38,175 nucleotides of DNA from Bacillus sp. (in: firmicutes) (GTDB taxonomy: Bacteria > Bacillota > Bacilli > Bacillales > Bacillaceae). A program made the position numbers and the translations under genes. The stretch spans positions 12,418 through 50,592 of the forward strand of contig JAPSLL010000029.1 in NCBI GenBank assembly GCA_031180805.1, in the 5' to 3' direction. Within the stretch, counting starts at the first letter, position 1. Every line of letters starts with the position of its first letter. The notes under the pieces are model-generated. The model was not told the DNA's origin and made no database searches. It was given only the letters and a program-made list of their open reading frames with translations. Shown piece by piece: positions 257 through 20,932 of the stretch.

Positions 257-1882
257 ATGGCAAACCCAATAAATAATAAACGATTTTTAGTTATATTTGT
301 AATTATTCTTATTTTATCTATGGTTTTACTTGGATGTTCAAATGAATCAGTAGAAAATCCAAATTCTACAGGTAGAAGTGACAATATGATTACTTTTGCT
401 TGGCCTAGAGATATAGGTGAATTGAATCCACATATCTATAATCCATCTCAATTATTTGCTCAATCCATGGTATATGAACCTTTAGTTAGCTACCAGGATG
501 GAGGAGAGTTAAAGCCACATTTAGCAGAGTCATGGGAGATTTCCGAAGATGGGAAAGAATATTTGTTCAACTTACGTCAAGATGTGAAATTTACTGATGG
601 CACAAATTTTAATGCAGAGATTGTGAAGAAGAACTTTGATGCTATATTAGCAAATATCGATTTACACAGTTGGTTAGGATTTATTTCGAAGATTGCTCAA
701 ACAGAGGTCATCGATGAGTATACCTTTAAATTAACTCTAACAGAACCATATTACCCTACTATTCAGGAGCTAGCTGTTGTACGCCCAGTTCGATTCCTAG
801 GGGAAGCTGGTTTCCCTCAAGATGGTGACACTTCAAAAGGTGTAGAAAAGCCAGTTGGGACAGGCCCATGGGTATTAGATGAATACAAAGCAGATGAATA
901 TGCTGTATTTAAACGTAACGAAAATTATTGGGGAGAACTCCCAAGTATAGAGAAAATTAAAGTTAAAGTCATTCCAGATGCTGAAACACGTGTACTTGCT
1001 TTCGAAAAAGGGGACTTAGATGTTGTTTATGGTGAGGGTGTTATCGGTATAGATTCTTTTAAGCAATTAGAATCTACAGATTCATATGGGAGCAGCATTT
1101 CTGAACCGGTTGCTACTAGGCAGCTAGTTATGAATTCGAATAAAGAACAGCTCTCAGATGTACGTGTTCGTCAAGCATTACATTATGGATTTAATAAACA
1201 AGCAATGGTTGAGGGCGTGACATCTGGTTTGGAAGAGAAGGCTGACTATATCTTACCAACGAACTTCCCTTACACTTCAAATGTTGAGGCAACCAAGGTC
1301 GATTATAATGTTGAGAAAGCGAAACAATTATTGGATGAAGCAGGCTGGAAGTTGCCAAAAGGTAAAAATATTCGTGAAAAAGATGGGAAACCACTAGAAA
1401 TCGAGTTAATGTATAACTCTGCTGAATCCATTCAAAAAACAATGGCTGAAACATTACAATCCGAGTGGGCAGGATTAGGCGTAAAATTAAATATTGTTGG
1501 AGTTGAGCTTACCACTCAAGTTGAAAGATTCAAAGCGAATGAGTTTGATATGAACTTCTTCAGTAACTATGGCGCTCCATATGACCCACATACTTTCGTA
1601 AATATAGTTGCTACAGAAGGATTTGGATTTAGAGAGGCTATTTCAGCTTATTCTAATAAAGAGGAGTTACTGAACCAAATAGCTGAGGTTACACAAACAA
1701 CAGATGAAAATGAACGCCAAAAACTATACACGAAAATTTTAGGTTCACTACAAGAGCAGGGTGCCATTGTGCCTATTTCGTATATTAAGAAAATAGCAGT
1801 TTATCAAAAGAATGTTTCTAATTTTACATTCCCTGCTAACCGAGATGAACATCCATTTACAGGAATTAGTATTAAGAAGTAA
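257..1882 (+). CDS. nikA: Nickel-type (NikA/CntA family) ABC transporter substrate-binding lipoprotein
   Basis: Extracytoplasmic binding protein of a NikABCDE-type importer, in the SBP_bac_5 (peptide/nickel) family. The N-terminus is a lipoprotein signal: a hydrophobic stretch at residues 9-25, then the lipobox LLGC with lipidated Cys27. The mature part follows E. coli NikA closely along its length: FAQSMVYEPLV near 67-77, GTGPW near 200-204, NYWGE near 222-226, GAPYDPH near 438-444. Trp139 and Arg176 fall where E. coli NikA has Trp100 and the chelate-binding Arg137. The position of NikA Trp398 is Tyr437, and the loop holding NikA His416 (here about 448-464) has no histidine. The ligand is therefore more likely a metal-chelate or metallophore than free nickel. 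ATG start with GGAG 246-249. First gene of a five-gene operon under a Fur box. Sure of the family, less of the metal. Confidence 0.9.
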   Translation: MANPINNKRFLVIFVIILILSMVLLGCSNESVENPNSTGRSDNMITFAWPRDIGELNPHIYNPSQLFAQSMVYEPLVSYQDGGELKPHLAESWEISEDGKEYLFNLRQDVKFTDGTNFNAEIVKKNFDAILANIDLHSWLGFISKIAQTEVIDEYTFKLTLTEPYYPTIQELAVVRPVRFLGEAGFPQDGDTSKGVEKPVGTGPWVLDEYKADEYAVFKRNENYWGELPSIEKIKVKVIPDAETRVLAFEKGDLDVVYGEGVIGIDSFKQLESTDSYGSSISEPVATRQLVMNSNKEQLSDVRVRQALHYGFNKQAMVEGVTSGLEEKADYILPTNFPYTSNVEATKVDYNVEKAKQLLDEAGWKLPKGKNIREKDGKPLEIELMYNSAESIQKTMAETLQSEWAGLGVKLNIVGVELTTQVERFKANEFDMNFFSNYGAPYDPHTFVNIVATEGFGFREAISAYSNKEELLNQIAEVTQTTDENERQKLYTKILGSLQEQGAIVPISYIKKIAVYQKNVSNFTFPANRDEHPFTGISIKK

Positions 1883-1900
1883 CCGACAGGAGCGTTGTTC

Positions 1901-2845
1901 ATGGGTACTTATGTCTTGAAACGAATAATCACCATTGTTCCAATCTTTCTTTTGGCCACTCTGCTTACATTTGGAATGATAAACCTATCACCAGTGGACC
2001 CGGCAGAGGCATATTTTACTGCTGCACATATCCAGGCAACAGATGAAATGCTGGAACAAAAAAGACTTGAGTTCGGTTTAGATCAGCCTCTCTTTATCCA
2101 ATATGTGAATGCCCTTATTAAGATTTGCCAATTTGATTTAGGCATATCTTATGTTACGAATAAACCTGTCTTGGAGGAGATATCCTCCCGAATGCCAGCA
2201 ACTATTCAGTTAACTATAAGCAGTCTTTTGATTGCAATCTTAGTAAGTGTTCCTATTGGATTTTTAGCAGGTATAAAGAAAAACAGCGTAATTGACCATT
2301 TTAGTAGATTCCTCTCTTTTATAGGGGCATCCATCCCATCATTTTGGTTAGGTTATTTATTCATTTTTTTCTTTTCTGTAAAACTAGACCTTTTACCAGT
2401 AGAAGGTACAGGAACCTGGCAACATTTAATTTTACCTTCAGTCACGCTGGCTTTCCCGTTAATAGCTTTATATACCCGACTGCTACGTGCAAGCGTTCTA
2501 GAAAATTTACAAGAGTCTTATGTGCTCTTTGCACGGACGAGAGGGATTCATGAAAAAGCCATAATGGGAAAGCATGTATTAAGAATTGCCATTTCCCCTA
2601 TGATTACCGGACTTGGAATGAATTTAGGAAACTTAATGACTGGAGCTGTAATTGTAGAGGCAGTCTTTTCATGGCCAGGGTTTGGGCGATTTTTTATTGA
2701 GGCTATTTTTAATCGTGATGTTCCTGTTATTCAAGGCTATGTGCTATTAGCAGCGGGATTATTCCTTATAAGCAACTTAATTGTCGACCTTATCCAAATG
2801 TATATTGATCCGCGTATTTCTAGAAAAGGAAGGCAGTACCAATGA
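1901..2845 (+). CDS. nikB: Nickel-type ABC transporter permease, NikB family
   Basis: First membrane subunit of the importer (BPD_transp_1, DppB/NikB type), 314 aa with about six membrane helices. A helix near residues 7-27 is followed by an outside loop with the typical LGLDQP-like segment (FGLDQPLFIQY). The cytoplasmic EAA-type loop that contacts the ATPases is the segment around FARTRGIHEKAIMGKH. The end, ending near YIDPRI, is typical of the family. I choose ATG 1901 over the in-frame TTG at 1895 because the Shine-Dalgarno AGGAG at 1888-1892 is 8 nt from the ATG and only 2 nt from the TTG. The gene follows nikA by 18 nt and overlaps nikC by 4 nt. Confidence 0.92.
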   Translation: MGTYVLKRIITIVPIFLLATLLTFGMINLSPVDPAEAYFTAAHIQATDEMLEQKRLEFGLDQPLFIQYVNALIKICQFDLGISYVTNKPVLEEISSRMPATIQLTISSLLIAILVSVPIGFLAGIKKNSVIDHFSRFLSFIGASIPSFWLGYLFIFFFSVKLDLLPVEGTGTWQHLILPSVTLAFPLIALYTRLLRASVLENLQESYVLFARTRGIHEKAIMGKHVLRIAISPMITGLGMNLGNLMTGAVIVEAVFSWPGFGRFFIEAIFNRDVPVIQGYVLLAAGLFLISNLIVDLIQMYIDPRISRKGRQYQ

Positions 2846-3672
2846 AAGCAAAGTTTTGTGATATGTTAAAAAGTCAAAAAGTTATTGTCATTTGTTCTTT
2901 AATACTGTGCGTTTTATTTTTGATCACTATCTTTGCTCCGTGGATTGCACCTAATGACCCTATCGCTGTCAATTTAACTCATAAACTACAGCAGCCTTCA
3001 TTGGATTACCCATTAGGAACAGATCATTTAGGTCGATGTACATTTTCGCGTATCTTATATGGTGCACGAATTTCAATAGGGTTTGCTATGCTAATATTTA
3101 TTTCAGCTTTAAGTATTGGTTTGATTATTGGTATCATTGCTGGGTATAAAGGTGGTTGGGTTGATCAATTGTTAATGAGATTCGGTGATGGTCTGATGGC
3201 GATCCCAAGCCTTTTGTTTGTTCTTGGTTTTGTTGGTATTTGGGGAGCTGGTCTTAAACAAGTCATTTTAGGATTAATTCTCGTACAATGGGTTTATTAC
3301 GCAAGGGTAATTCGAGGAATGGTTCTAAGCTTGAAAGAACAGAACTATATTACTGCAGCTAAAATCAGTGGTTCTTCTACATGGTCCATCATGAAGAAAC
3401 ATATTATTCCTAATGTTCTTCCATCACTGGCTGTAATGGGAACATTAGAAATGGGCTGGGCAATTATGAATTTATCATCCATGTCCTTTTTAGGCTTAGG
3501 TGTACAACCCCCTATACCAGAGTGGGGGGCGATGATTCTTGAAGGGAAGTCATATATCAGAACACATCCAGCTTTAATGATTTATCCAGGTCTAAGTATT
3601 ATGCTAGTCGTTGTTACCTTTAATTTACTAGGTGAATCACTATCAGAACGCTTTGGGGTTAAACGCCGCTAA
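2842..3672 (+). CDS. nikC: Nickel-type ABC transporter permease, NikC family
   Basis: Second membrane subunit, 276 aa (DppC/NikC type). An N-terminal helix at about 14-34 precedes the family motif PLGTDHLGR near residues 57-65. Here the motif continues with Cys, where the family usually has Asp (GRD). The EAA loop is around AAKISGSSTWSIMKKHIIPN, and LGLGVQPPIPEWGAM near 216-230 is diagnostic of this permease class. The start ATG overlaps the nikB stop in an ATGA arrangement, which implies translational coupling and equal amounts of the two permeases. It should form a heterodimer with NikB in the cytoplasmic membrane. Confidence 0.92.
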   Translation: MKAKFCDMLKSQKVIVICSLILCVLFLITIFAPWIAPNDPIAVNLTHKLQQPSLDYPLGTDHLGRCTFSRILYGARISIGFAMLIFISALSIGLIIGIIAGYKGGWVDQLLMRFGDGLMAIPSLLFVLGFVGIWGAGLKQVILGLILVQWVYYARVIRGMVLSLKEQNYITAAKISGSSTWSIMKKHIIPNVLPSLAVMGTLEMGWAIMNLSSMSFLGLGVQPPIPEWGAMILEGKSYIRTHPALMIYPGLSIMLVVVTFNLLGESLSERFGVKRR

Positions 3673-3692
3673 TGAAAAAGGACTGTTGAAAA

Positions 3693-4523
3693 ATGGAAGC
3701 AAATGATCGAGATATTTTAAATGTAAAAGACTTACATGTACACGTAAAAACCGTTGAGGGTTTATCTACACTTGTTCAGGACATTAATTTTGGAATTAAA
3801 AAAGGGAAGATACTAGGTCTTGTTGGGGAAAGTGGTAGTGGAAAAACGGTTACAAGTATGTCTATCATGCAGCTGCATGATAAGAAGAATATGGATATTA
3901 GAGGGAGTGTTACACTGAAAGGCAGGGAATTGAATGGTCTAGAAAACAAAGAAATGCGGAAAATTCGAGGGAAAGATATTGCTTTTATTATGCAAAATCC
4001 GATGAATGCTTTTACCCCAGTTTTTACGATTGGCCATCAATTTATTGAAACAATTAAATCTCATACTTCATTAAATAAAAAGCAGGCAAGAAAGCTTGCG
4101 ATTGATGTGATGGAGAATGTAAATTTGCCAGATCCCTATAAATTGTTAAGAAACTATCCTTTTCAGTTAAGTGGAGGTATGCTTCAACGAGTAATGATTG
4201 CCATGGCTGCATGCTTACAGCCATCTGTTATTATTGCCGATGAGCCAACTACAGCACTTGATCTTCATAGTCAATTATTAGTATTGCGTCTATTAGATAA
4301 AGTTCGCTCAGAATATGGAACATCTATTTTACTTATTTCTCATGATCTTGGAGTTATTTCAGAGTTAGCTGATGATGTAATTGTAATGCAACATGGGAGA
4401 ATAGTAGAAACTGCAAATGTGTTAGAATTATTTGATAATCCACAACATGAGTACACGAAGAAGCTATTAAGGACAAGACCAACCTTATATTCTCAAAAAC
4501 AACCCTATACCTATAGGTTGTGA
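3693..4523 (+). CDS. nikD: Nickel-type ABC transporter ATP-binding protein, NikD family
   Basis: First ATPase of the importer, 276 aa. All ABC motifs are present: Walker A GESGSGKT (about residues 47-54), Q-loop in FIMQNPMNAFTPVFTIGHQ, signature LSGGMLQR, Walker B VIIADEPTTALD, and H-loop ISHDLG. FTPVFTIGHQ and a C-terminus with PQHEYTKKLL are typical of the NikD/DppD/OppD branch. The C-terminus lacks the four-cysteine iron-sulfur segment seen in some DppD proteins. RBS AAAGGA lies shortly before the ATG, 20 nt after nikC. An imperfect inverted repeat (CAACC...GGTTG, about 4499-4520) covers the last codons but has no T tract. Confidence 0.92.
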   Translation: MEANDRDILNVKDLHVHVKTVEGLSTLVQDINFGIKKGKILGLVGESGSGKTVTSMSIMQLHDKKNMDIRGSVTLKGRELNGLENKEMRKIRGKDIAFIMQNPMNAFTPVFTIGHQFIETIKSHTSLNKKQARKLAIDVMENVNLPDPYKLLRNYPFQLSGGMLQRVMIAMAACLQPSVIIADEPTTALDLHSQLLVLRLLDKVRSEYGTSILLISHDLGVISELADDVIVMQHGRIVETANVLELFDNPQHEYTKKLLRTRPTLYSQKQPYTYRL

Positions 4524-4556
4524 TAGACCGATTTAATTTTCCGAGGGGTGAAACCA

Positions 4557-5378
4557 TTGAGCTTATTACAGGTAAAACAAGTAAATCTTAGCTTTAAATC
4601 TAAGAAGCTTTTTATAGGGAAGGATCTATCAAATAAAGTTCTTAATGATATTTCCTTTTCAATTGAAGAAGGAACATGTTTAGGTTTAATTGGAACAAGT
4701 GGAGCCGGTAAAAGTACCTTAGGAAAAGTAATTCTCGGGATCCAACGTCCACAGCAAGGTCAGGTGCTGTTTCAAGGATATGACATTTATAATGCGGATA
4801 AAGCAACCCGACAAAAACTACGTCGCGATCTACAAGTTGTATTTCAGGACTCCTATTCAGCTGTTAACCCACGGATGACTGCCGAGCGTATTATCAGCGA
4901 GCCATTAGAGAACTATGAAAAACTAACCGTAGCAGAACAAAGAAAAAGGGTTATTGAGCTATTGGAAAGAGTAGGATTGAGCGAAAAGGATTTAACAAAA
5001 TATCCACATCAATTTAGCGGCGGACAATTACAAAGGATTAACATATCTAGAGCAATCGCTCTTAAACCGAAGTTAATCGTCCTTGACGAATCGGTAAGTA
5101 GTTTAGATATGGTTACACAAAGCTTAATTTTAGAACTATTAAGAGAATTAAAAACTGACTTTGGCTTATCTTATCTTTTTATTACTCACGATATTAAAGC
5201 GGCTTTTTCGATTTCTGATAAAATTGGTGTCCTTGAAAAAGGTAACTTAATTGAGCTTTACAATTCTAAAGAACAGTTTTTTTCCTCGAAACATCCTGTT
5301 GTTAAAAGGATGAGAGACTCTATTCTTGCTGAACATCCACGTTTTCGTACAATTACGACGGGACCAAACATAGTATAA
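4557..5378 (+). CDS. nikE: Nickel-type ABC transporter ATP-binding protein, NikE family
   Basis: Second ATPase of the importer, 273 aa. Walker A is GTSGAGKST, the signature is FSGGQLQR, Walker B is LIVLDESVSSLD (Ser-Val where DEPT is usual, seen in NikE/OppF-type proteins), and the H-loop is ITHD. I place the start at TTG 4557, since the strong Shine-Dalgarno GAGGGGTG at 4543-4550 is 6 nt upstream. The alternative GTG at 4548 lies inside that Shine-Dalgarno and would add three residues. It should pair with NikD as the motor of the complex. Last gene of the operon, followed by a hairpin terminator. Confidence 0.9.
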   Translation: MSLLQVKQVNLSFKSKKLFIGKDLSNKVLNDISFSIEEGTCLGLIGTSGAGKSTLGKVILGIQRPQQGQVLFQGYDIYNADKATRQKLRRDLQVVFQDSYSAVNPRMTAERIISEPLENYEKLTVAEQRKRVIELLERVGLSEKDLTKYPHQFSGGQLQRINISRAIALKPKLIVLDESVSSLDMVTQSLILELLRELKTDFGLSYLFITHDIKAAFSISDKIGVLEKGNLIELYNSKEQFFSSKHPVVKRMRDSILAEHPRFRTITTGPNIV

Positions 5379-6786: not shown

Positions 6787-8040
6787 TTATCTACTTGCAA
6801 CCAATTGTTCGTTAACGCTAGGCTGATGATGTCTTTCACTCTTCATAATTAACGCACCAATGGTAACGAATACAATTACCATCAATGACATGATAACATA
6901 CGAGTTTTGGAATCCCATAGTCTTATATAAGGAGCCCATTACATAAGAGAAGATGGTGATACCAATTTGTTTTGCGAAGTTAAATCCAAGCATATAGACG
7001 GTTGCTGATAGTCGAACATCGAATACACCTGTAATATATTTCATGATTGAAATGAGCATTAATGGCATTTCGATAGATGCAAGGATTCTCCAGAGTGACA
7101 GCATCCAAATCTCTGTGAAAAATGCGGAGCCTAGGATACGGATGAATAAAATAATTCCTGCTAGAATAAGTCCGTTTTTAGCTCCTATTTTGTTAATAAA
7201 CCATGGTGTTAACACCATAAATCCTGCTTCGATAAAGACTTGTATCGAGGCAATACGGCTAAATACGAGTTCTCCTCTAGATGCGTCATCAAAAAAACTA
7301 GTAAAGTAATTCGGGAATTGTTGATCAAAGACGTCAAACATTGTTGCGATCCCAATCATCATGATACAAAATCCCCAAAAGCTTCTGTTTTTAAAGACGT
7401 TCATGATATTTTCTTTTGTAACAGGAGTTTCATCATCCTCTTGAGAATCTTCACTACTAGTATCCTCATTTTTGACACGAAGTGCCCATAAGAGTACACC
7501 TAGAACAATGGCAGAAACCGTACATGCCCAGAAAATACTATAAGGGTTACGTACAAACATGATTCCACCAATAAATGCAGCTGTACCACCAGCTAATGAA
7601 CCGAAAAGACGAACATGCCCATATTCATAATTACTTGCCCGTGTAGAACGTTCAATATATGCTTCGACAACGCCGACACCACCGTTTAAACACAAGCTTA
7701 AGAATGCTCCACCAACAATTGCGCCGAATACAGCATTAATTTGAAGGAGTGGAATAAAAGCAAATTGAACGAAAGGCCCAATAAATAACAGGCATAAAAC
7801 AACGAAACCGAATAAATATTTCTTTAAGCCTAGCTTATCCTGGATTAATCCATAAAGCGGTTCCAAGATAAGGGCAGTTACAGCCATTGCTGAGAATACT
7901 AAACCTGAAACACTCGTATCCAGATGTGCTGTTTTATTTAGCCAAAATGGCAAGAAGGCAAATATTAAAGCCCAGATCATGAAGTAAAAATAGTACATAC
8001 CGCCGAAGTTCCAGAATTTAAGTTGTTTTAAGTTACTCAT
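6787..8040 (-). CDS. LacY-like oligosaccharide:H+ symporter (MFS)
   Basis: A 417-aa, 12-helix major facilitator of the LacY/CscB/RafB oligosaccharide:proton family, imported sugar unproven. Several landmarks align with E. coli LacY: DKLGLKKY after helix 2, VEAYIER with Glu126, GHVRLFG with Arg144, INKIGAKNGLILAG, Glu271 (LacY Glu269), Arg301 (Arg302), Glu324 (Glu325), KYITGVFDVRLSATVY. LacY His322 is replaced by Ala321 and Lys319 by Arg. The middle loop (about 190-208) is unusually acidic. It follows the GH43 gene by 16 nt with RBS AAAGGA, under an AraR-type promoter. I infer uptake of arabinose-containing oligosaccharides from pectin or arabinan. Confidence 0.85.
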   Translation of the reverse strand: MSNLKQLKFWNFGGMYYFYFMIWALIFAFLPFWLNKTAHLDTSVSGLVFSAMAVTALILEPLYGLIQDKLGLKKYLFGFVVLCLLFIGPFVQFAFIPLLQINAVFGAIVGGAFLSLCLNGGVGVVEAYIERSTRASNYEYGHVRLFGSLAGGTAAFIGGIMFVRNPYSIFWACTVSAIVLGVLLWALRVKNEDTSSEDSQEDDETPVTKENIMNVFKNRSFWGFCIMMIGIATMFDVFDQQFPNYFTSFFDDASRGELVFSRIASIQVFIEAGFMVLTPWFINKIGAKNGLILAGIILFIRILGSAFFTEIWMLSLWRILASIEMPLMLISIMKYITGVFDVRLSATVYMLGFNFAKQIGITIFSYVMGSLYKTMGFQNSYVIMSLMVIVFVTIGALIMKSERHHQPSVNEQLVASR

Positions 8041-8056
8041 GTTAGTTAATTCCTTT

Positions 8057-9043
8057 CTATTTTAAAACCTCTGGTGTCTTAGGAGTCCATCTTTTATCGG
8101 GAACAGGTACACCAAATATTGGATTTCCTTGTTCATCCCACTCAATTTTTTGCGCGCGTGCTTGGCGGTTAGGTTCATAGAGGGGATCTCCGACTAATTC
8201 TGTATAGTTACGAGCATGATAGACGAGTATAGTATCTTTGCCATCAGGAGACTCTGTAAAGCAATTATGTCCTGGTCCATACTGACCATTTTCAGGGCAG
8301 CTTTGGAATACTGGTTCCTGACTTTTCGTCCATGAATCTGGATTTAATAAATCAGCATCTTCACTTGCAGTTAAAAGTCCCATACAGTAATCTACACCGG
8401 TAGCACTTCCTGAATATGTAAGGAATACTTTTCCGTTTTTAATTAAAACAGCAGGCCCTTCATTTACCCAAAAGCCTTTGATTTCCCATGGGAGCTCAGG
8501 CTTGGTTAGCATGACTGGTTTAGTAGATAATGTCCAAGGGTTTTCCATTTTTGCAATATATAGATTAGAGTGTCCTTCAATATTTAAGTCCTGTTGTGCC
8601 CAGACGTAATATTGTTCACCTTTATGGAAAAATGTCGTAGCGTCAAGAGAAAACGTTGACATTTCAGTTTTAACTTCACCCTTTTCAACCCAAGTCCCTT
8701 CAAGTGGATTATCGGATGCGTTTTCAAGAACGTACATTCTATGGTTGAACGTATCATCGTCGATATTAGTATCAGGTGCTGCAGCAAAGTAAATATACCA
8801 CTTTCCATTTGCCCGATGAATTTCTGGAGCCCATATTAACTCACTTAAAGGTCCGCTTTCATGCTTCCACCAAACAGCTACTTCTTTAGCCTCTTGTAAA
8901 TCATTTAACGATTTTGCTCTTCTTAGAACAATGCGATCATAGAGAGGGTGAGAGCCTGTAAAATAATAATAGCCATCCGTATGTTTATAGACGAAAGGAT
9001 CTGCACGTTGTAATACAATTGGATTTAATATTTCTTCTGTCAT
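8057..9043 (-). CDS. Glycoside hydrolase family 43, probable alpha-L-arabinofuranosidase
   Basis: A 328-aa five-bladed beta-propeller hydrolase. The three GH43 acidic residues are visible: general base Asp15 (RADPF), pKa-modulating Asp134 (FSLDATTF) and general acid Glu195 (VNEGPAV). WAPEIHRANGKWYIYF at 71-86 is a family hallmark. There is no signal peptide or export motif, so it should act in the cytoplasm on short oligosaccharides. Its partner is the symporter encoded directly downstream. The start ATG has the strong RBS AAGGAGTG. AraR boxes in its promoter point to an arabinose-containing substrate. A beta-xylosidase of the same family is the main alternative. Confidence 0.85.
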   Translation of the reverse strand: MTEEILNPIVLQRADPFVYKHTDGYYYFTGSHPLYDRIVLRRAKSLNDLQEAKEVAVWWKHESGPLSELIWAPEIHRANGKWYIYFAAAPDTNIDDDTFNHRMYVLENASDNPLEGTWVEKGEVKTEMSTFSLDATTFFHKGEQYYVWAQQDLNIEGHSNLYIAKMENPWTLSTKPVMLTKPELPWEIKGFWVNEGPAVLIKNGKVFLTYSGSATGVDYCMGLLTASEDADLLNPDSWTKSQEPVFQSCPENGQYGPGHNCFTESPDGKDTILVYHARNYTELVGDPLYEPNRQARAQKIEWDEQGNPIFGVPVPDKRWTPKTPEVLK

Positions 9044-11047: not shown

Positions 11048-11081
11048 TTGATTAAAATATAAATCGTAACTATTACGATTT
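11048..11081 (+). promoter_or_regulatory. Promoter with Zur box for the oxidoreductase gene
   Basis: TTGATT (11048-11053), 17-bp spacer and TATTAC (11071-11076) make a plausible promoter. A near-perfect 21-bp Zur box (11061-11081; half-sites AAATCGTAAC and ATTACGATTT about one T) covers the spacer and -10. It differs from the B. subtilis Zur consensus by about one base. Predicted: expressed under zinc limitation. The remaining bases from the araR upstream region to 11047 show nothing else. Confidence 0.9.
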
Positions 11082-11100
11082 ATTTTATAGGAGGAAGTAA

Positions 11101-12267
11101 ATGCTAGATTGGTTAGTTATTGTCGGTGGTATTCACGGATGTACTATTTCTACCTATTTAATTAAACATAAAAAAGTCGAACCATTAAAGCTTTGTATAG
11201 TCGATCCACATAGCGAACCTATGGCTAGATGGAAGCGAAATACTGCTAAAATATCAATGTCCTATCTTCGTTCGCCGTCAGTTCATCACATTGATATTAA
11301 TCCTTTCAGTTTACAGCAGTTTGAAAGGAAAGTATCAAATGTACATAAAGATTTCTATGGGATTTATAAACGTCCTTCAATAGAATTGTTTAATGAGCAT
11401 TGCGATAAAGTAATTTTCGAAGCAGGCTTAAAGAAATGCTGGCATAAAGGATTAGTTGGAAAGGTTCAAAGAGGAAAGGACTTTTGGGAAGTGTATACGG
11501 AAAGCGGAGAAATGTTTAAATCCAAAAATGTCGTTATTGCCATCAGCGTGAATGAACAGCTTTTGATTCCTACTTGGGCAGAGGAGCTTGCTGTCAATTG
11601 TACGAAAAGGGTTCATCATATATTTGATGATAACATGAAGGATGTTTCAAAGCTGAAGGCACCTATTGCGATTATTGGTGGAGGGATTACCGCTGCTCAT
11701 CTAGCTATTAAGCTATCTCAACAGTTTCCTGGGAAAGTATTTTTAATAAAACGTCATCCATTTCGCGTGCATGACTTTGATAGTGATCCTGGTTGGTTAG
11801 GGTTAAAGCGTCAGGGACCTTTTAGTAAGGTGAAGGATTATCGAATACGCAGAGAGCAAATTAAACAAGCTAGATTCAAAGGCTCTGTTCCAAGAGATGT
11901 GTTATATGCAATGAAGAGACTAGAGGCAAAAGAGAAGCTACATATTATTGATGGTGAAGTTACTTCATATACTTTAGATAAGGAAACATTGACTCTTAAC
12001 GTAAGCTCGAATTCACTTCAAGTTAGAAATGTATTACTTGCAACAGGTTTTTTACCAACAAGACCTGGTCATCGATGGATAGAGAGACTAATTGAAGAGG
12101 AACATTTAACATGTGCCCATTGCGGCTATCCAATTGTAAATAAAGCCCTAGAGTGGTGTCCTCATTTATATGTGATGGGCCCGTTGGCAGAGTTGGAGAT
12201 GGGCCCTATAGCTAGAAATATTTCCGGTGCTAGGCAGGCAGCGGAGAGAATAGTGGCTAGCCTATGA
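11101..12267 (+). CDS. FAD/NAD(P)-dependent oxidoreductase under Zur control, function unknown
   Basis: A 388-aa flavoprotein. Residues 1-20 hold the FAD-binding Rossmann start (VIVGGIHG), 187-205 a second dinucleotide motif (AIIGGGITAAHLA), and LLATGFLPT at 312-320 the ATG motif. This layout is that of flavin monooxygenases and pyridine-nucleotide oxidoreductases (SidA/IucD-like or Pyr_redox_3-like). The C-terminus carries an unusual set: CAHC (338-341), Cys353 and His355, a possible metal or redox site, followed by the conserved-looking GPLAELEMGPIARNI. RBS AGGAGG precedes the ATG. Gene 1 of a Zur-controlled block with zagA and a Nik-type importer, so it may modify or unload an imported zinc chelate. 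Substrate not predictable; sure only of the fold. Confidence 0.8.
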   Translation: MLDWLVIVGGIHGCTISTYLIKHKKVEPLKLCIVDPHSEPMARWKRNTAKISMSYLRSPSVHHIDINPFSLQQFERKVSNVHKDFYGIYKRPSIELFNEHCDKVIFEAGLKKCWHKGLVGKVQRGKDFWEVYTESGEMFKSKNVVIAISVNEQLLIPTWAEELAVNCTKRVHHIFDDNMKDVSKLKAPIAIIGGGITAAHLAIKLSQQFPGKVFLIKRHPFRVHDFDSDPGWLGLKRQGPFSKVKDYRIRREQIKQARFKGSVPRDVLYAMKRLEAKEKLHIIDGEVTSYTLDKETLTLNVSSNSLQVRNVLLATGFLPTRPGHRWIERLIEEEHLTCAHCGYPIVNKALEWCPHLYVMGPLAELEMGPIARNISGARQAAERIVASL

Positions 12268-12272
12268 ATTTT

Positions 12273-12293
12273 AAATCGTAATGAATACGAACT
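12273..12293 (+). promoter_or_regulatory. Second Zur box, between oxidoreductase gene and zagA
   Basis: Half-sites AAATCGTAAT and AATACGAACT around a central G match the Zur consensus at about 17 of 20 positions. It occupies the 39-nt gap before zagA and overlaps its Shine-Dalgarno region, so it could control a local promoter or block read-through. No clear -35/-10 is seen. Confidence 0.75.
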
Positions 12294-12306
12294 AGGAGGA
12301 GATTAG

Positions 12307-13491
12307 ATGAAAAGAAAGGTACCAGTAACGGTTCTAAGTGGTTATTTAGGATCAGGGAAAACGACTTTATTAAATCATGTATTACAGAACAGAGAAAACT
12401 TAAAGGTTGCGGTGATTGTTAACGATATGAGTGAGGTTAACATAGATGCCACAATGGTGAAAAAAGGAGGCTTTAGCCGAACTGACGAAAAGCTAGTTGA
12501 AATGCAGAACGGCTGTATTTGTTGCACGTTACGTGAGGATTTGATTGTAGAAGTGGAGCGACTTGTTAAAGCTGGTGACATTGATTATATCCTAATTGAA
12601 TCATCAGGTATTTCTGAGCCTATACCAGTTGCTCAAACGTTTACCTATATTGATGAAAACTTAAGGATCAACCTCCCTGAATACTGCGAGCTTGATACGA
12701 TGGTCACAGTAGTTGATGCAAATCGTTTCTGGCATGACTTTGCTTCTGGGGAAAGTCTGCTAGATCGAAAGCAGGGAAATGATGAAACGGATTCTAGAGA
12801 AATAGTTGATTTACTCATTGATCAAATTGAATTTGCTAATGTTCTTGTTTTAAATAAAATTGATTTAGTTGATCGAGAAAGTATTGAGGAATTGAAACTA
12901 ATCTTACAAAAATTGAATCCTGAAGCAAAGATAATTGAAAGTGCATATTCTGTTGTGGCGTTATCGAGTATTTTGAATACAGGTTTATTTGACTTTGAAC
13001 GTGCTAGTCAAGCTGCTGGTTGGATTAAGGAGTTGAACGAAGAGCATACTCCCGAGACAGAGGAATATGGGGTTTCCTCCTTTGTTTATCGAAGAAGAAA
13101 ACCATTTCATCCAGAAAGATGGTTAAGATGGCTAGAAAACTGGCCAGTGGAAGTTGTCCGTGCGAAAGGATTCTTTTGGCTAGCAACCCGTAATAATATG
13201 ACAGGCTTACTTTCACAAGCTGGACCATCAATTATATTTCAAGGAGCTGGTGAATGGATTGCTGCAGCATCTAAGCAGGAGCAAGCTAAGCTTCTTGAAG
13301 AAGAACCTGAATTGCTCGAACGTTGGGATGATGTTTATGGAGATCGAATGAATGAACTTGTTCTCATTGGAATAGATTTAAATAAAGAACAAATTGAAGC
13401 GGCCTTAGATGAATGCCTTCTAACAGACGAAGAGATGATTCAAGACTGGAGCAAATTTCACGACCCACTCCCACCGTTTATTGTTGAGTAG
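12307..13491 (+). CDS. zagA: COG0523 GTPase, ZagA/YciC-type zinc metallochaperone
   Basis: A 394-aa G3E-family GTPase. The P-loop is GYLGSGKT (12-19), the family metal-binding motif CxCC is GCICC (69-73), and the guanine-specificity motif is NKID (183-186). It matches B. subtilis YciC/ZagA over most of its length: [58 protein letters not shown], and HTPETEEYG before the C-terminal CobW domain. ZagA is known to be Zur-repressed and to deliver zinc to FolE under zinc limitation. The RBS AGGAGGA lies next to a Zur box. The genomic partners here (flavoprotein upstream, importer downstream) differ from the B. subtilis yciABC operon. Confidence 0.92.
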
Positions 13492-13571
13492 TTACAAATA
13501 ATTTAAAAAGCAAGTATTTATAAACAATCAGGGATCAATACTAAAAGATTTAGAAAAAATCAATTTACCAC

Positions 13572-13623
13572 TTGTCAAATCGTAATGGTTACGATAAAAT
13601 TCAAATCGAAATCATTACGGTTT
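13572..13623 (+). promoter_or_regulatory. Promoter with two Zur boxes for the second Nik-type importer
   Basis: TTGTCA (13572-13577), 17-bp spacer and TAAAAT (13595-13600) form a good promoter. Zur box A (13577-13597; half-sites AAATCGTAAT and GTTACGATAA) covers it. Box B (13603-13623; half-sites AAATCGAAAT and ATTACGGTTT) covers the expected transcription start. The centres are 26 bp apart. Two boxes suggest tight, possibly graded repression by zinc-loaded Zur. Confidence 0.9.
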
Positions 13624-13656
13624 TTTGTGAAAGAAATAATAGTATGGAGGAATATA

Positions 13657-15255
13657 ATGAAATTATGGAAAAGCAATAATTCGACCAGCTTTTTAGTATT
13701 TAGTAGTTTCGGAAAATACATAAAAACTCACTTACTAAAATTAAGTATTTTACTAGTTTGTGTTAGCTTGTTAAGTGCTTGTACAGAGGCATCTGAAAGT
13801 ACTGTTAAGAAAAACGCAGAAGATAAGCATATTCATTTTCTTTATAATTTCTCTACTAATTCTCTAGATCCTCATGTTGATTCAAGTTATGTCCCACTTA
13901 GAGCGGGCATAACAGAAACGCTAGTGCGATTAGATGAGGAAAATTTAACGGTTGCACCATGGCTAGCAGAAAGCTGGGAAGGTGAGGATGGGCAACATTG
14001 GACAATTAAGCTTCGTGAAGATGTTACGTTTCAAAATGGTAAACAAATGGATGCAAAAGCGGTGAAGGCTTCTCTTGAACGAGCGCTAAAGGAGAGTGTT
14101 GCAATACAGAATGCACTTAAAATCGAGAAAATTGAAGCAGATGGTTATACATTACATATAACAACAAAGGAGCCTTTTCCAGAATTTGTTTCAGAACTTG
14201 TTAATCCAAATGTTTCGATCATTGATGTAACAGAAGAGGATATTGTAGGTAAACCGATCGGGACAGGACCTTTTGCGTTAAAATCATTTACACCTGGAAG
14301 CAAGCTAGAACTCGTACGTTACGATAATTATTGGGATGGAGCCTCAAAACTCGATTCGGTGACTTTCTCCTTTAATGAGGATGCAAATGCCCGTTCGCTT
14401 GCGCTGAAATCTGGGGAAGTAGATATTGTATATCGCCCTGAGGTAGAGAGCTTGGAATCATTAAGGGCACAAGAGGGGATTAAAGTTGAATCAACTGCGA
14501 CATTCCGCGTACATCAAATGACGATGAATATGGAACGTAAAAGTTTGCAGGATATCAACGTACGTCGTGCTGTAGACGCATTGATTGACCGCCAAAGGAT
14601 CGTTGATACGATTTTATTAGGTTACGCGGAACCTGCTGTCGGTCCATTTTTACCTTCATTACCATTTGCACCAACGTATGAGCAGAGTGAAACTGGAAGT
14701 GATATAGCGGTTAAATTTTTAGAGGAAGCGGGCTATACACTTGAAAACGGAAAAATGCAAAAAGACGGAGAGCAGCTTAAGTTTACCCTTTTAACCTATA
14801 GTGCGCGAGCAGACTTGCCTTTAATTGCCCAAGTTTTTCAATCGGATGCGAAAAAAATTGGAATTGATGTAGAGATTCGCCAAATTGATATTCCAGAGGA
14901 ATACATGGCGTCAAACCGTGACTGGGATTTAGCTACGTATAGTAATTTAACAGCTCCTCGTGGGGATGCTGGCTATTATTTAAATGCAACCTATCATCCA
15001 ACTGGTGCTCTTAACTTTAGTGGTGCCCAGGAGCCTGAATTGACGGCGATTATTGACAAGCTTAATCAAACAGTCAATCAAGAGGAGCGGGCTACTTTAG
15101 CAGAACAGGCGGCTGATTATGTCCATGACAATGTGATTAATTCATTTGTTTTGCATCCATCGACGATTGTTGCATACAACGAAAACAAGGTTAAAAATTG
15201 GCTAACAACGCAAAGTGAGTATTACATGATTACTAACGATTTGGATGTGAAGTAA
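13657..15255 (+). CDS. Zur-controlled Nik/Opp-family substrate-binding lipoprotein
   Basis: A 532-aa SBP_bac_5 binding protein with a long N-region, a hydrophobic stretch at about 26-40 and the lipobox LSAC (Cys42). Family landmarks include LAESW, NGKQMDAKAVKASLERAL, GKPIGTGPF, YDNYWDG, DINVRRAVDALIDRQRIV and FLEEAGY. It is divergent from the nikA product of this window and lacks its RPVRF segment, so the ligand differs. ATG 13657 with GGAGG at 13646-13650 is the start. The frame stays open back to an ATG at 13585, but that codon lies between and inside Zur boxes upstream of the likely transcript start. Ligand by context: a zinc chelate or metallophore; a peptide cannot be excluded. Confidence 0.85.
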   Translation: MKLWKSNNSTSFLVFSSFGKYIKTHLLKLSILLVCVSLLSACTEASESTVKKNAEDKHIHFLYNFSTNSLDPHVDSSYVPLRAGITETLVRLDEENLTVAPWLAESWEGEDGQHWTIKLREDVTFQNGKQMDAKAVKASLERALKESVAIQNALKIEKIEADGYTLHITTKEPFPEFVSELVNPNVSIIDVTEEDIVGKPIGTGPFALKSFTPGSKLELVRYDNYWDGASKLDSVTFSFNEDANARSLALKSGEVDIVYRPEVESLESLRAQEGIKVESTATFRVHQMTMNMERKSLQDINVRRAVDALIDRQRIVDTILLGYAEPAVGPFLPSLPFAPTYEQSETGSDIAVKFLEEAGYTLENGKMQKDGEQLKFTLLTYSARADLPLIAQVFQSDAKKIGIDVEIRQIDIPEEYMASNRDWDLATYSNLTAPRGDAGYYLNATYHPTGALNFSGAQEPELTAIIDKLNQTVNQEERATLAEQAADYVHDNVINSFVLHPSTIVAYNENKVKNWLTTQSEYYMITNDLDVK

Positions 15256-16200
15256 ATGGTCCAAATTCTTGCTCGGAAATTTTTTGAAGTATTATTTTTT
15301 ATGTTATTTATTACATTTGTTAGTTTTCTATTTGTACGAATGGCACCTGGTGATCCTGTTTTAACGATATTGAATGTTGATGAGTTATCTGTTAGTCAGG
15401 AGCAAGTAGAGACTTTAAGGGAAGAGATGGGATTTAATAAGCCATTGCTCGTTCAGTACGGGCTTTGGCTCCTTAAATTTATCCAACTTGATTTTGGGGC
15501 GTCATATGTCACTGGCCAACCTGTTATGGATATGATTTTAATGGGATTGCCTGCTACGCTCGAACTAGCAGCCGGCGCATTAATTGTTATGCTCATCGTA
15601 TCCGTTCCACTTGGCTCTTTATCTGCCCTATATAGAGATAGTTGGATCGATCAAGTTAGCCGAGTATTATCAATTATTGGTGCTGCAATTCCAAGTTTCT
15701 GGCTAGGCCTTATTTTAATTGATTTATTCGGTGTCCGCTTTAACTGGCTTCCAACTATGGGGAGAGAAGGGTTTGTTTCTTTGATCTTACCATCATTGAC
15801 ACTTGGCTTGGCCATTTCCAGCGTATATGTTCGTTTGCTTCGTTCAAGCTTACTTGATTCGCTTAGTCAGGAGTTTATTCGGGCAGCAAGAGCGCGCGGG
15901 CTATCAGAACGGCGAATTTTTCTAGTACATGCATTTCGCCATAGTCTGCCGCCTGTTATTACTGTATTTGGAGTCAGCTTAGGAAGCTTAATCGGTGGTG
16001 TAGTGGTGATTGAAGTATTGTTTGCGTATCCAGGGATCGGAAAGCTTGTTGTTGATGCGATACGTCAACGGGATTATCCGCTTATTCAAGGGTATATATT
16101 AATCATGGCCATTATCGTTTTTGTTGTAAATACATGTGTTGATTTATCTTATAGGTATTTAAATCCTGAAATGAAACTAAAAGAAAGGAGAACCAACTGA
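15256..16200 (+). CDS. Zur-controlled Nik/Opp-type ABC permease (B subunit)
   Basis: A 314-aa DppB/NikB-type permease with about six helices. Visible landmarks are MAPGDP near residues 30-35, FGASYVTGQPV, the EAA-type loop RAARARGLSERRIFLVHAFRH split over about 212-232, and FAYPGIGKLVVDAIRQRDYPLIQG near the end. The ATG directly abuts the stop of the binding-protein gene, without a spacer, so the two are translationally coupled. It pairs with the permease encoded next. Confidence 0.9.
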   Translation: MVQILARKFFEVLFFMLFITFVSFLFVRMAPGDPVLTILNVDELSVSQEQVETLREEMGFNKPLLVQYGLWLLKFIQLDFGASYVTGQPVMDMILMGLPATLELAAGALIVMLIVSVPLGSLSALYRDSWIDQVSRVLSIIGAAIPSFWLGLILIDLFGVRFNWLPTMGREGFVSLILPSLTLGLAISSVYVRLLRSSLLDSLSQEFIRAARARGLSERRIFLVHAFRHSLPPVITVFGVSLGSLIGGVVVIEVLFAYPGIGKLVVDAIRQRDYPLIQGYILIMAIIVFVVNTCVDLSYRYLNPEMKLKERRTN

Positions 16201-17048
16201 TGAGACAAGTGTCGATACATTTGCCCAAGGTAAAAAAGAATAGCTGGCAAGCGATATTGGCTATGATTTGCGGAGGCGTTGTTATTGTAATGGCTATTTA
16301 TGCCTTCTTTTATTTGCGGTACGACCCAACATTAACAAATCTCGATGGACGACTTCAAGGCATGAGTCTTCAGCATCCACTTGGAACAGACCAACTAGGG
16401 CGTGATGTACTAACAAGGCTTTTGCTAGGTGGGCAACAGACAATTGGTTATAGCTTGCTTGCGCTAGTTGCTGCGCTTATCATTGGAATCCCTTTTGGTC
16501 TTATTTCCGGATATAAGCGAGGAATTGTTGATCGGATCTTTATGCGAATTGCCGATGCATTTTTAGCTTTCCCCGATATGATTGTTGCAATTGTTCTGAG
16601 TGGTTTACTTGGACCAAGCATCGGCAACCTTGTCCTCGCTATTGTGATGGTCAAATGGGTTAGTTATGCGCGTCTTGTTCGAAGCACGGTTCTATCAGAA
16701 TCCCAAAAAGAATATGTGTTGATTGCCCGTACAAATGGTTTATCTTCTATGAAAATTATCCGTAAGCATTTATTTCCGCATATTGTTGGGCATGTCCTCG
16801 TTTTGGCAAGCCTTGATCTTGGCAAAATTATTTTGCTCATTTCTGCTTTTTCTTACATTGGGCTAGGAGCACAGCCGCCAACTCCTGAATGGGGGGCAAT
16901 GCTAAATGACTCTCGCCCATACTTTCAGTCAAGGCCTGAATTAATGATTTATCCTGGGTTAGCTATTGTAATAGTTGTGTTACTAACAAATATGCTTGGG
17001 GATTATTTACGCGACTATTATGATGTGAAGAAAGAGGTGCAGCAATGA
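16200..17048 (+). CDS. Zur-controlled Nik/Opp-type ABC permease (C subunit)
   Basis: A 282-aa DppC/NikC-type permease. An N-terminal helix at about 17-40 is followed by the family motif HPLGTDQLGRD near 60-70. The EAA-type loop around ARTNGLSSMKIIRKHLFPH and the diagnostic LGAQPPTPEWGAML are present. The start codon overlaps the upstream stop by one base (TGATG). Unlike NikC of the Fur-controlled importer, it keeps the usual Asp after LGR. Confidence 0.9.
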   Translation: MRQVSIHLPKVKKNSWQAILAMICGGVVIVMAIYAFFYLRYDPTLTNLDGRLQGMSLQHPLGTDQLGRDVLTRLLLGGQQTIGYSLLALVAALIIGIPFGLISGYKRGIVDRIFMRIADAFLAFPDMIVAIVLSGLLGPSIGNLVLAIVMVKWVSYARLVRSTVLSESQKEYVLIARTNGLSSMKIIRKHLFPHIVGHVLVLASLDLGKIILLISAFSYIGLGAQPPTPEWGAMLNDSRPYFQSRPELMIYPGLAIVIVVLLTNMLGDYLRDYYDVKKEVQQ

Positions 17049-17845
17049 CTTTAACGATTGACGATGTATCCATTAGTAGTAAAGAAAAGAAAATCGTTCA
17101 GAACGTATCACTTTCCATCCATGAAGGAGAATGGTATGCATTGGTTGGGCAGAGCGGGAGCGGCAAAAGCATCCTCTCACAAGCAATTGGACAAATGCTT
17201 TCTCCTAATTTGCGGGTTGAGGGAAAGATTCTTTTTAAAGGAGAAGATTTGCTGTCATTGCCAGCAAAACAAATGAGGAATATTCGCGGTAAAAAACTTT
17301 CCTATATTTTTCAGGATTATCAGGGTTCTTTTACACCGTTCAGAACGATTGGTCAGCATTTTGACGAATACGAGAGAACTCATGGTATTCTCGATGCAAA
17401 AACAAGACGAAACAAGTCAATGGAGGCACTTGAATCAGTTGGATTGGATGACGCATTGTACAATCAATACCCATTTCAGCTTAGTGGTGGACAACTCCAG
17501 CGCGTTTCAATCGCAATAGCCCTTTTATTATCTCCGGATTTATTGATTGCTGATGAGATAACAACGGCACTTGATAGTGTTTCAGGGCACAGGATTTTAG
17601 AGTTACTTGCAAAACGGCAAAAAGAAACAGGCTGTGCGATTTTATTCATCACACATGATTGGCGTCATGTCAGACGCTATGCGACTCGTTTAGCTGTTAT
17701 GAAAGAGGGGCAAATCGTTGAATCAGGTGGAAAGCATCGTATACTTGACCACCCGCAGCATGAATATACTAAGAAGCTGATTGAAGCGGCGCCTATACTT
17801 GGACGAGGTCTCCCATCAGGGTTACAGGAGGTCAAAAACGGATGA
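17045..17845 (+). CDS. Zur-controlled Nik/Opp-type ABC ATPase (D subunit)
   Basis: A 266-aa ATPase with Walker A GQSGSGKS (about 34-41), the Q-loop in IFQDYQGSFTPFRTIGQHF, signature LSGGQLQR, Walker B LLIADEITTALD and H-loop ITHDW. Ile replaces the usual Pro in DEPT. The ATGA overlap with the preceding gene and the C-terminal PQHEYTKKLIEAAP are typical of the NikD branch. It should work as a heterodimer with the next ATPase. Confidence 0.9.
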   Translation: MTLTIDDVSISSKEKKIVQNVSLSIHEGEWYALVGQSGSGKSILSQAIGQMLSPNLRVEGKILFKGEDLLSLPAKQMRNIRGKKLSYIFQDYQGSFTPFRTIGQHFDEYERTHGILDAKTRRNKSMEALESVGLDDALYNQYPFQLSGGQLQRVSIAIALLLSPDLLIADEITTALDSVSGHRILELLAKRQKETGCAILFITHDWRHVRRYATRLAVMKEGQIVESGGKHRILDHPQHEYTKKLIEAAPILGRGLPSGLQEVKNG

Positions 17846-18603
17846 ATCTCCTTACTGTGAAACAGCTATCAAAATCATATCAAGGTAGTAAAGCTGCAGT
17901 GAGTAACCTTTCATTTGAGCTAAACAAAGGGGAATGTCTTGGACTTGTCGGTGAAAGTGGCTGTGGTAAAAGTACATTAGCTCGTTGCTTGTTAAGAATT
18001 GAACCAATTGATAGCGGATCAATTCAATTTAAGGGTGAACCGATTGAGAAGCTTAATGAACGTCAGCTGTTACCATATCGAAAAAAGATACAAATCGTGT
18101 TTCAAAATCCATCTGCTGCATTAAACCCAAAATTAAAAATAAAAGATTCCTTGATTGATCCATTTGTTCAATATAGGAAGGAGCTTAATATTAGCCATTT
18201 TTCCTATACTTCTAAGGATGCTTTTGTAAAGCAACTTCTTGAAGCTGTTGAATTGACTCCTGATTTAGCGAATCGATATCCCCATGAATTAAGTGGCGGC
18301 CAACGGCAACGTGTCACAATTGCCCGTGCTATCAGTATTGAGCCTGAGCTTATCGTTCTTGATGAGCCAACTGCTAGCCTTGATGTCATTTCGCAAGGAG
18401 CAGTACTTTCATTATTGACAGAGCTTCGAGAAACTTTAAATCTATCTTACTTGTTTATCTCACATGATCTTGCCGCTGTCAGTCAAATGAGCCAGAGAAT
18501 TATGGTGATGAAGGACGGTAAGCTTGTTGAACAATTTAACCGTGATCAGTTATTTAGTAAGGAACGTCATTCTTATACAAAAGAGCTTATTTCAATTTTT
18601 TAG
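17842..18603 (+). CDS. Zur-controlled Nik/Opp-type ABC ATPase (E subunit)
   Basis: A 253-aa ATPase with Walker A GESGCGKST (about 36-44), the Q-loop IVFQNPSAALNPK, signature LSGGQRQR, Walker B LIVLDEPTASLD and H-loop ISHDLA. It overlaps the preceding gene by 4 nt (ATGA) and completes a standard five-component importer. Termination is unclear: a weak stem pairs 18579-18587 with 18611-18619 and has no strong T tract. Confidence 0.9.
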   Translation: MNLLTVKQLSKSYQGSKAAVSNLSFELNKGECLGLVGESGCGKSTLARCLLRIEPIDSGSIQFKGEPIEKLNERQLLPYRKKIQIVFQNPSAALNPKLKIKDSLIDPFVQYRKELNISHFSYTSKDAFVKQLLEAVELTPDLANRYPHELSGGQRQRVTIARAISIEPELIVLDEPTASLDVISQGAVLSLLTELRETLNLSYLFISHDLAAVSQMSQRIMVMKDGKLVEQFNRDQLFSKERHSYTKELISIF

Positions 18604-19832: not shown

Positions 19833-19930
19833 TGTTATGATTTCATTAATCCTAATAGGAAGGAGGGTAGACAATTTGCATCTAGAATTTGCTTGAAAAG
19901 ATAAATTAAATAAAGGACGTGAGGAGAAAG

Positions 19931-20932
19931 ATGAAAACAAAATTATTAAAGATGTTTATTGCAAGTATCTCAATGATAATTTTAGTTGTTGGTTTGTCTT
20001 TTCAATCTGTTTCTGCTGCTACTCCTGATTTCAGTATGAAAGGCTTTGCTACTTCTAATGGTGGAACAACTGGCGGCGCAGGTGGAGATACGGTCACTGT
20101 TCAGACTGGAGATGAAATCATCCAAGCTTTAAATAATAAGGATGCTAATACACCTTTAACGATTTATGTGAATGGAACGATTACACCTGATAACACCTCT
20201 GATAGCAAAATCAACCTCAAAGATGTTTCTGATGTTTCCATATTAGGCGTTGGTACAAACGGTGAATTTGATGGAATTGGCATCAAAGTATGGAGAGCAA
20301 ATAATATCATCATTCGTAACCTCACTATCCACGAAGTTAGAGCTGGCGATAAAGATGCCGTAACGATTGAAGGCCCTTCTAGTAATATTTGGGTCGATCA
20401 TAATGAGATTTACGCTAGCCTAAATGTAGACAAAGATTATTATGACGGGCTTTTCGATGTGAAACGTGACGCTTATAATATAACCTTCTCTTGGAACTAT
20501 GTACATGATGGGTGGAAGGCAATGTTGATGGGCTCATCAGATAGCGATAATGCCGATCGAAATATCACATTCCATCATAATCATTTTAAGAACTTAAACT
20601 CCCGTGTTCCTAGCTTCCGTTATGGTAAAGGACATCTTTATAACAACTATTATGAAGGAATTGTTGGTTCAGGTATTAATGCACGAATGGGTGCGGAACT
20701 TCTTGTCGAAAACAATGTATTTGAAAATTCACATAACCCATTAGGCTTTTGGTATAGCGATGAGACAGGTTATTGGAATGTTTCAAACAATCTTTATATT
20801 AATAGCACAGGCAGCCAACCAACATCATCCACTACAAATTACACAGTCCCATACAATTATACGCTAACCCCTGTTGAGGATGTAAAATCAATAGTCACTC
20901 AATATGCAGGTGTTGGAGTCGTTCAACCGTAG
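19931..20932 (+). CDS. Secreted pectate lyase, polysaccharide lyase family 1
   Basis: A 333-aa exported enzyme that cleaves polygalacturonate by beta-elimination in a calcium-dependent way. A signal peptide covers residues 1-29, with probable cleavage after VSA. The rest is a right-handed parallel beta-helix: [12 protein letters not shown], Ca-ligand-type Asp142 (KDAVTIEG), WVDHNEIY (154-161), Asp172/Asp176 in YDGLFD, and NITFHHNHF. The catalytic region SRVPSFRYG holds Arg225 and Arg230. ATG 19931 with GAGGAG just upstream is preferred over an in-frame GTG at 19919. With the GH43 enzyme and LacY-like importer it suggests growth on plant pectin. Confidence 0.92.

Follow-up and report, generated by a model that had tools for sequence, protein, structure and literature searches.

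The window analysed here is a stretch of 38,175 nucleotides from the draft genome of a Bacillus sp. (assembly GCA_031180805.1, contig JAPSLL010000029.1, positions 12,418 to 50,592). At 11061-18603 it carries a block of three units in a common direction, encoding a flavoprotein, a COG0523 GTPase of the ZagA type and a five-gene importer, with predicted boxes for the repressor Zur at each of them. On balance, the block is probably a zinc-starvation response composed of two modules under one repressor, with the flavoprotein belonging beside ZagA in one and the importer making up the other. New here is the zinc linkage of the flavoprotein family, which extends across domains.

Zur boxes in the window and in relatives

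Control of all three units by Zur, as a sequence-only reading of this stretch had proposed, is supported by four boxes, found where that reading had placed them. A scan of the whole 38-kb window for the 21-base palindrome, with shuffles as control, yielded these four (one to three mismatches; Table 1) against a chance expectation of 0.01, with none of 100 shuffles reaching four, and the Bacillus-type palindrome, AAATCGTAATNATTACGATTT, is recognizable 5′ of genes of the block. A weight matrix made from 20 boxes ahead of rpsN2, znuA and folE2 genes in other genomes (preselected at no more than two mismatches to the consensus, some also facing a flavoprotein gene) likewise sets the four apart, the next-best site in the window scoring 7.2 and the maximum over 40 random 38-kb sequences being 16.3. 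The weakest box, between the flavoprotein gene and zagA, scores slightly below the lowest training site (18.4). Beyond these four, neither the palindrome nor the matrix scan found a strong Zur box anywhere in the window. The 15-base core alone was rejected as evidence since it is too permissive, its five matches in the window being equalled in 11 of 100 shuffles. A promoter-like site at 13572-13600 overlaps the whole of one importer box; such sites are not enriched in the region (18, against a shuffle mean of 23.1).

Conservation of the boxes also favors the predicted control. In a panel of 150 genomes the full-length flavoprotein is encoded in 43 and pieces of it in three more, giving a set of 46 (there were 52 matches at E ≤ 0.001, and six weak ones were excluded as other flavoproteins). 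At 37 of the 46 loci with an open reading frame (ORF) for it, i.e. the window and 45 others, a Zur box lies within −300 to +60 of the gene, compared with 22 of 727 background ORFs, from which 17 clusters judged to be of zinc type, that of the flavoprotein included, were omitted. The corresponding figure for named loci, which lean to close relatives because they are the best 80 of 328, is 60/80, compared with 42/941 unassigned ORFs. Among the nine box-less loci are some where the flavoprotein gene follows an S14 gene or the importer in a shared direction, and others where the ORF start is extended. Relatives of the importer's substrate-binding protein (SBP) at E ≤ 1e-120, here SBP5, occur in 51 of the 150 genomes, the host genome included. 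Outside the host 51 distinct places were examined (52 loci, L071 and L233 being the same place), and a box with at most two mismatches lies in the same interval at the SBP gene in 37 of the places (38 of the loci), compared with 0/52, 0/51, 0/53 and 0/56 ORFs for the other four importer subunits.

The company kept by the flavoprotein gene

Zinc reference genes lie within 7.5 kb of the flavoprotein gene at 41 of the 46 loci and 76 of the 80 named ones (FolE2, S14, L31, ZnuA and TIGR03943 labels were verified by model; yciB and ycgR are names that we presume to apply). A ZagA-type gene is within that distance at 29/46 and 61/80 and directly downstream at 23/46 and 41/80, and an S14 gene is near at 13/46 and 38/80, folE2 at 11/46 and SBP5 at 6/46 and 4/80. 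At the level of whole genomes, in Fisher tests not corrected for kinship, ZagA is present in all 46 flavoprotein genomes as against 57 of the 104 others, the association with SBP5 is weaker (27/46 versus 24/104), and none was found with cntM (8/46 versus 11/104, p = 0.29). With one over-sampled genus removed, the flavoprotein-ZagA, flavoprotein-SBP5 and SBP5-cntM associations persist and there is still none between flavoprotein and cntM. The co-occurrence for which the sequence-only reading had suggested a search was thus borne out for ZagA and, less tightly, for the importer.

We presume that B. subtilis strain 168 lacks the flavoprotein, and know of no Opp5A importer described in its Zur regulon. 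That regulon comprises yciC/zagA, folE2, znuABC and rpsNB (PMC5007448); the block is like it in box and GTPase type, and the likeness is extended by seven Bacillus-type loci in which the flavoprotein gene has folE2 and an L,D-transpeptidase gene on one side and zagA on the other. Precedent for a Zur-controlled oxidoreductase with a COG0523 protein comes from Corynebacterium glutamicum, where the Zur-repressed oxidoreductase gene cg0795 is a partner of the COG0523 gene cg0794, a functional link being suggested by the authors (PMC2823685). However, those genes are divergent, and cg0795 can be likened to the flavoprotein by description only. Among the matches listed, from open-licence papers, literature linking the flavoprotein and Zur in Bacillales was not found (a weak negative), nor was any on its zinc linkage across domains, and the main text of a study of the Zur regulon in B. 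anthracis (PMC6336718) does not contain the word ‘oxidoreductase’.

Among the matches listed, the closest named relative of the flavoprotein is that of Metabacillus niabensis, with 95% identity. A small protein without Pfam match also recurs: ten clustered members come from ten flavoprotein loci and frequently adjoin an S14 gene (e.g. L059:10273-10671 and L060:12082-12447; 121-132 aa).

Relatives beyond Bacillales chromosomes

A tblastn search of plasmids with the flavoprotein gave 18 records, of which 14 were examined (H7, H12, H17 and H18 being left out). By annotation 13 of the 14 have zinc-type neighbors, counted as a GTP-binding protein, S14, znu-type ABC genes or hemB with folE: all four from cyanobacteria, all seven from haloarchaea and two of the three from Bacillales. 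In Leptolyngbya and all but one of the seven haloarchaea the GTP-binding neighbors resemble ZagA, the matches being at 33-49%; on three cyanobacterial plasmids the flavoprotein relative adjoins hemB and folE; and Nik-type transporter genes are near in two haloarchaeal records. SufU-like (37% identity) and MoaB-like (33-35%) genes occur in zinc-type loci both in Bacillales and on two haloarchaeal plasmids (L015:4951-5229; L265:1889-2149; L267:1868-2128). The recurrence of zinc-type neighbors, ZagA matches and SufU- and MoaB-like genes across such lineages points to a zinc-starvation kit common to bacteria and archaea. The sole examined exception without zinc-type neighbors is an S. aureus record, CP052031, in which a FAD-dependent oxidoreductase gene (L257:7004-8158), a relative of that for the flavoprotein, carries, 20 bases ahead of its start, the Zur-type box AAATCGTAACGATTACGCTTT and is a candidate Zur target.

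Fold and possible chemistry of the flavoprotein

In the flavoprotein the Pfam models NAD_binding_9 and Pyr_redox_2 exceed their cut-offs, and an AlphaFold2 (AF2) model (predicted local distance difference test score, pLDDT, 93.8) predicts a fold that spans the entire chain and includes both a FAD and an NADPH domain. The best structural matches of the model are the N-hydroxylating monooxygenases PvdA, KtzI, DesB and SidA, with IruO, which we take to be a siderophore reductase, a poorer one. Even so, the flavoprotein differs from these monooxygenases in being only 12-18% identical to them, in being shorter, in having its own motifs (LRSPxVHH, DSDPGWLG and GxLAELxxGPxxRN) and in scoring below the Pfam gathering cut-off for their family (PF13434; 20.2 bits, cut-off 21.3). 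The modeled fold makes NADPH- and FAD-dependent class B monooxygenase chemistry a tentative assignment, falling somewhat short of an even chance. Two other ideas were not retained. Invariant Arg57 was considered as the counterpart of the basic residue with which ornithine hydroxylases bind substrate, but two alignments pair it with different residues. A disulfide reductase role via CAxCGYP was dropped, the first Cys being absent in some Bacillales and both in archaea.

Genes of the block and the type of importer

The identities proposed from sequence alone for the genes of the block, a FAD/NAD(P) flavoprotein, a COG0523 GTPase, and an SBP with two permeases and two ATPases, agree with the family models (Table 1). 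Both CobW domains of the GTPase exceed the Pfam cut-off (cobW 196.6 bits, CobW_C 84.4 bits), and with GCICC read in its translation it has the cobW, CobW_C and CxCC combination of the ZagA/YciC subfamily; against NCBIfam ZigA it scores 537.6 bits, short of the cut-off of 600. The tightly ordered importer genes encode, as judged by models for the SBP (Opp5A_nikA 751 bits, cut-off 600) and for both permeases, a system that is of Opp5A/Opp2 (Nik) type. Neither ATPase exceeds the cut-off of any NCBIfam model in the matches listed, which are the best 25 out of 190 for the first and out of 188 for the second. As start of the SBP, ATG 13657 is preferred to the ORF start at 13585 because a ribosome-binding site, GGAGG, is at 13646-13650 and 13585 falls within a Zur box. 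Its lipobox suggests a surface lipoprotein. The solved chains nearest to the SBP are 3t66 and, second, S. aureus NikA (SaNikA, E 5e-78).

Table 1. Features of the predicted zinc-starvation block (window coordinates)
Feature	Position	Strand	Basis
Zur box ahead of flavoprotein gene	11061..11081	.	1 mismatch, matrix 30.7
Flavoprotein, 388 aa, class B / N-hydroxylating monooxygenase fold predicted (FAD + NADPH domains)	11101..12267	+	Pfam, AF2 model, structural matches
Zur box between flavoprotein gene and zagA	12273..12293	.	3 mismatches, matrix 18.1
COG0523 GTPase, ZagA/YciC/ZigA type, 394 aa, GCICC motif	12307..13491	+	Pfam, NCBIfam
Zur box 1, importer operon	13577..13597	.	3 mismatches, matrix 24.5; within promoter-like site 13572-13600
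Zur box 2, importer operon	13603..13623	.	2 mismatches, matrix 25.6
Opp5A/NikA-type SBP, lipobox LLSAC	13657..15255	+	NCBIfam Opp5A_nikA; ORF open from 13585
Permease, Opp2B type	15256..16200	+	NCBIfam Opp2B 444.5 bits, cut-off 350
Permease, Opp2C type	16200..17048	+	NCBIfam Opp2C 354.6 bits, cut-off 300
Importer ATPase 1	17045..17845	+	Pfam ABC_tran 99.7 bits
Importer ATPase 2	17842..18603	+	Pfam ABC_tran 120.3 bits

Importer relatives and likely cargo

The gene cntM, with cntL adjoining it, is within 6 kb of SBP5 at 10 of the 51 distinct places, and SBP5 is present in 17 of 19 cntM genomes. At L230 an EamA-type protein is encoded between cntM and the SBP. These ten places resemble opine zincophore cluster 5 of bacilli, which provides a precedent in having an Opp-type importer with an EamA exporter and CntM; the flavoprotein is not mentioned in the part of the source available (PMC7438024). 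The host block is unlike that cluster in being without synthesis genes and in having an SBP of Opp5A type. Boxes at SBP genes together with cntL-cntM neighbors tie the SBP class to zinc and partly to opines, and because of the frequency of both (37/51 and 10/51) the cargo is plausibly metal complexes of histidine-type zincophores. In an SBP tree the window copy falls in a 16-row clade without cntM within 6 kb, the opine-linked SBPs requiring four to five label changes elsewhere. L059 and L218, both from that clade, are in islands where there are also cntL-type genes and what we take to be cntK-type ones, with cntM a few kb further. Metal-chelate import, as envisaged in the sequence-only reading, therefore gains indirect backing from these neighbors; its comparison with CntABCDF does not hold as an identity for the window importer, given scores of 143.4 bits for CntA (cut-off 800) and 232.3 for CntC (cut-off 440).

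Zinc-type loci elsewhere in the host genome

The host genome is a 4.58-Mb draft in 119 contigs, its completeness given as 100. At 0-1 mismatch the 15-base core has ten sites genome-wide, three of them in the block and eight in all beside zinc-type genes; a 2-mismatch scan gave 42 forward matches versus 58 for a reversed control. One site is ahead of an S14 gene (C59). On C110 one separates a second zagA, which has another COG0523 gene after it, from a divergent gene for a dCTP deaminase, and a further one separates one more COG0523 gene, itself ahead of permease genes, from a znuA-type gene. Two on C111 precede an operon for CntA, an Opp1B permease, CntC, two ATPases and CntE. Sites with one mismatch at C93:23849 and C106:17532 (L005, L006) are inside ORFs without evident zinc role, presumably peptidase-like and glycine-betaine-transporter-like, and are due to chance or unexplained. 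Weak, 2-mismatch boxes are found at a second znuA (C99) and at a MATE homologue (L017:1111-2475, C117), the latter with two such Zur-like boxes upstream.

The C111 operon (L016:4418-10806; C111:118000-134000) does encode a true Cnt importer, with a CntE-type exporter: CntA scores 975.7 bits (cut-off 800), CntC 492.8 (440) and CntE 679.9 (235). Neither CntL nor the staphylopine dehydrogenase CntM (PF10100) was found in a search of the 119 contigs, so these two of the cntKLM-like synthesis genes that the sequence-only reading had suggested looking for appear to be absent; CntK resembles DapF. Two importers of this class, each with Zur boxes, are present along with an exporter of CntE type, and the host may use chelators made by others, the C111 system being a candidate zincophore pirate.

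A third SBP operon, of NikABCDE type, is in the window itself at 257-5378, with a NikA (257-1879) that exceeds the NikA cut-off; no Zur box was found there with palindrome or matrix. Three Fur-family genes are present in the host genome, one of which, L287, we take to resemble Zur, with no NCBIfam regulator model over cut-off for it. The dCTP deaminase gene behind the Zur box on C110 (L015:3796-4434; TIGR02274 over cut-off) has similar counterparts in L054, L062 and L072. As Bacillus makes dUMP via a zinc-dependent dCMP deaminase, it may provide a zinc-free bypass. Elsewhere in the window, genes for a LacY-type transporter, a GH43 glycosidase and a pectate lyase (6787-9043 and 19919-20932) suggest that the host feeds on plant matter.

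Proposed mechanism and rival explanations

With two modules and one repressor, a fall in zinc would cause Zur to leave its boxes and the three units to be transcribed. The flavoprotein and ZagA would work in the cytosol, where it is reasonable, from the known function of its family, that ZagA allocates zinc, giving what is scarce to priority proteins. The flavoprotein would aid this ZagA branch, likeliest as an NADPH/FAD-dependent class B monooxygenase with a small substrate. The Opp5A-type lipoprotein with its two permeases and two ATPases would import zinc on a histidine-type ligand. In those relatives that produce an opine zincophore, this would be the ligand; in the host, which lacks cntL and cntM, it would be one from other organisms or histidine itself. 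A more specific proposal is that the flavoprotein founds an uncharacterized NADPH-dependent monooxygenase family of the bacterial and archaeal zinc-starvation kit, hydroxylating a small amino-acid-like molecule or residue to yield a cytosolic zinc ligand or a substrate for ZagA-type GTPases; this is speculative and rather unlikely to be correct as it stands.

Several other explanations bear on the flavoprotein. One is that it replaces a zinc enzyme without itself needing zinc, in the manner of FolE2 or of ribosomal proteins free of zinc, and that it adjoins ZagA through shared regulation only; this is rather unlikely. The frequency of S14 and folE2 genes near its gene is in keeping with this, as are hemB and folE on the three cyanobacterial plasmids, and we know of no zinc enzyme with its chemistry, which counts the other way. 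Zinc-free paralogues are common Zur targets (PMC6103462), yet a substitute should have no need of a chaperone and the flavoprotein is never without ZagA in the 46 genomes. The sequence-only reading had the flavoprotein processing the chelator. That it reduces or breaks an imported chelator to free the metal would suit its position 5′ of the importer in the window and in L050 and L051, which are close relatives, and its position in L075 directly 3′ of an importer-MATE operon, as well as the Nik-type genes in two haloarchaeal records and a co-occurrence with SBP5 above expectation. However, zinc has no redox release step, the nearest predicted folds are N-hydroxylases rather than IruO, SBP5 is near the gene at only a small minority of loci, and there is a match to it in only one of 11 cyanobacterial and haloarchaeal records, at 28% identity. 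Since the gene tracks ZagA (cyanobacterial and haloarchaeal zinc-type loci included) and not metallophore synthesis, chelator breakage is improbable, and intracellular zinc allocation or sparing is the likelier role. Still less credence is due to the opposite proposal, that the flavoprotein builds a new zinc chelator by amine hydroxylation, for export by a Zur-boxed MATE protein and return through the Opp5A importer. It would draw on the modeled similarity to siderophore-pathway N-hydroxylases, on 26 MATE ORFs across the 52 SBP5 loci and on the host MATE gene with its weaker boxes, but an acyltransferase or synthetase was not noticed adjoining the flavoprotein gene, and both the setting between folE2 and zagA in the seven Bacillus-type loci and the scarcity of SBP5 nearby argue against it.

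For the importer, the question is whether it is an ordinary nickel, or nickel-histidine, importer on which the Zur boxes have little effect. The S. aureus Opp2/Opp5A (NikA) importer is known for nickel, and its NikA, a solved relative of the window SBP, is reported to bind nickel-histidine. NCBIfam models that name nickel transporters are over cut-off for the SBP, Opp2B and Opp2C, as befits that likeness. Unlike the S. aureus system, however, the window importer is under two Zur boxes, one of them over the promoter-like site, and adjoins zagA, and boxes are also present at most places of SBP relatives, some of which have cntL-cntM. In addition, the window has a separate NikA, which has no Zur box. 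A plain nickel role is accordingly quite unlikely, and import of zinc in complex by the second of the two modules is preferred.

Significance

To our knowledge the mechanism of COG0523 chaperones is an open question, and no small-molecule enzyme linked with them is known to us. The flavoenzyme, which is conserved and in 150 genomes has not been met apart from ZagA, offers a direct handle on these chaperones. Systems of Opp5A type that carry a nickel-importer annotation often have ties to zinc and to opine zincophores. In the host two of these importers and an exporter of CntE type occur in the absence of cntL and cntM, which makes it a case in which zincophore piracy can be tested.

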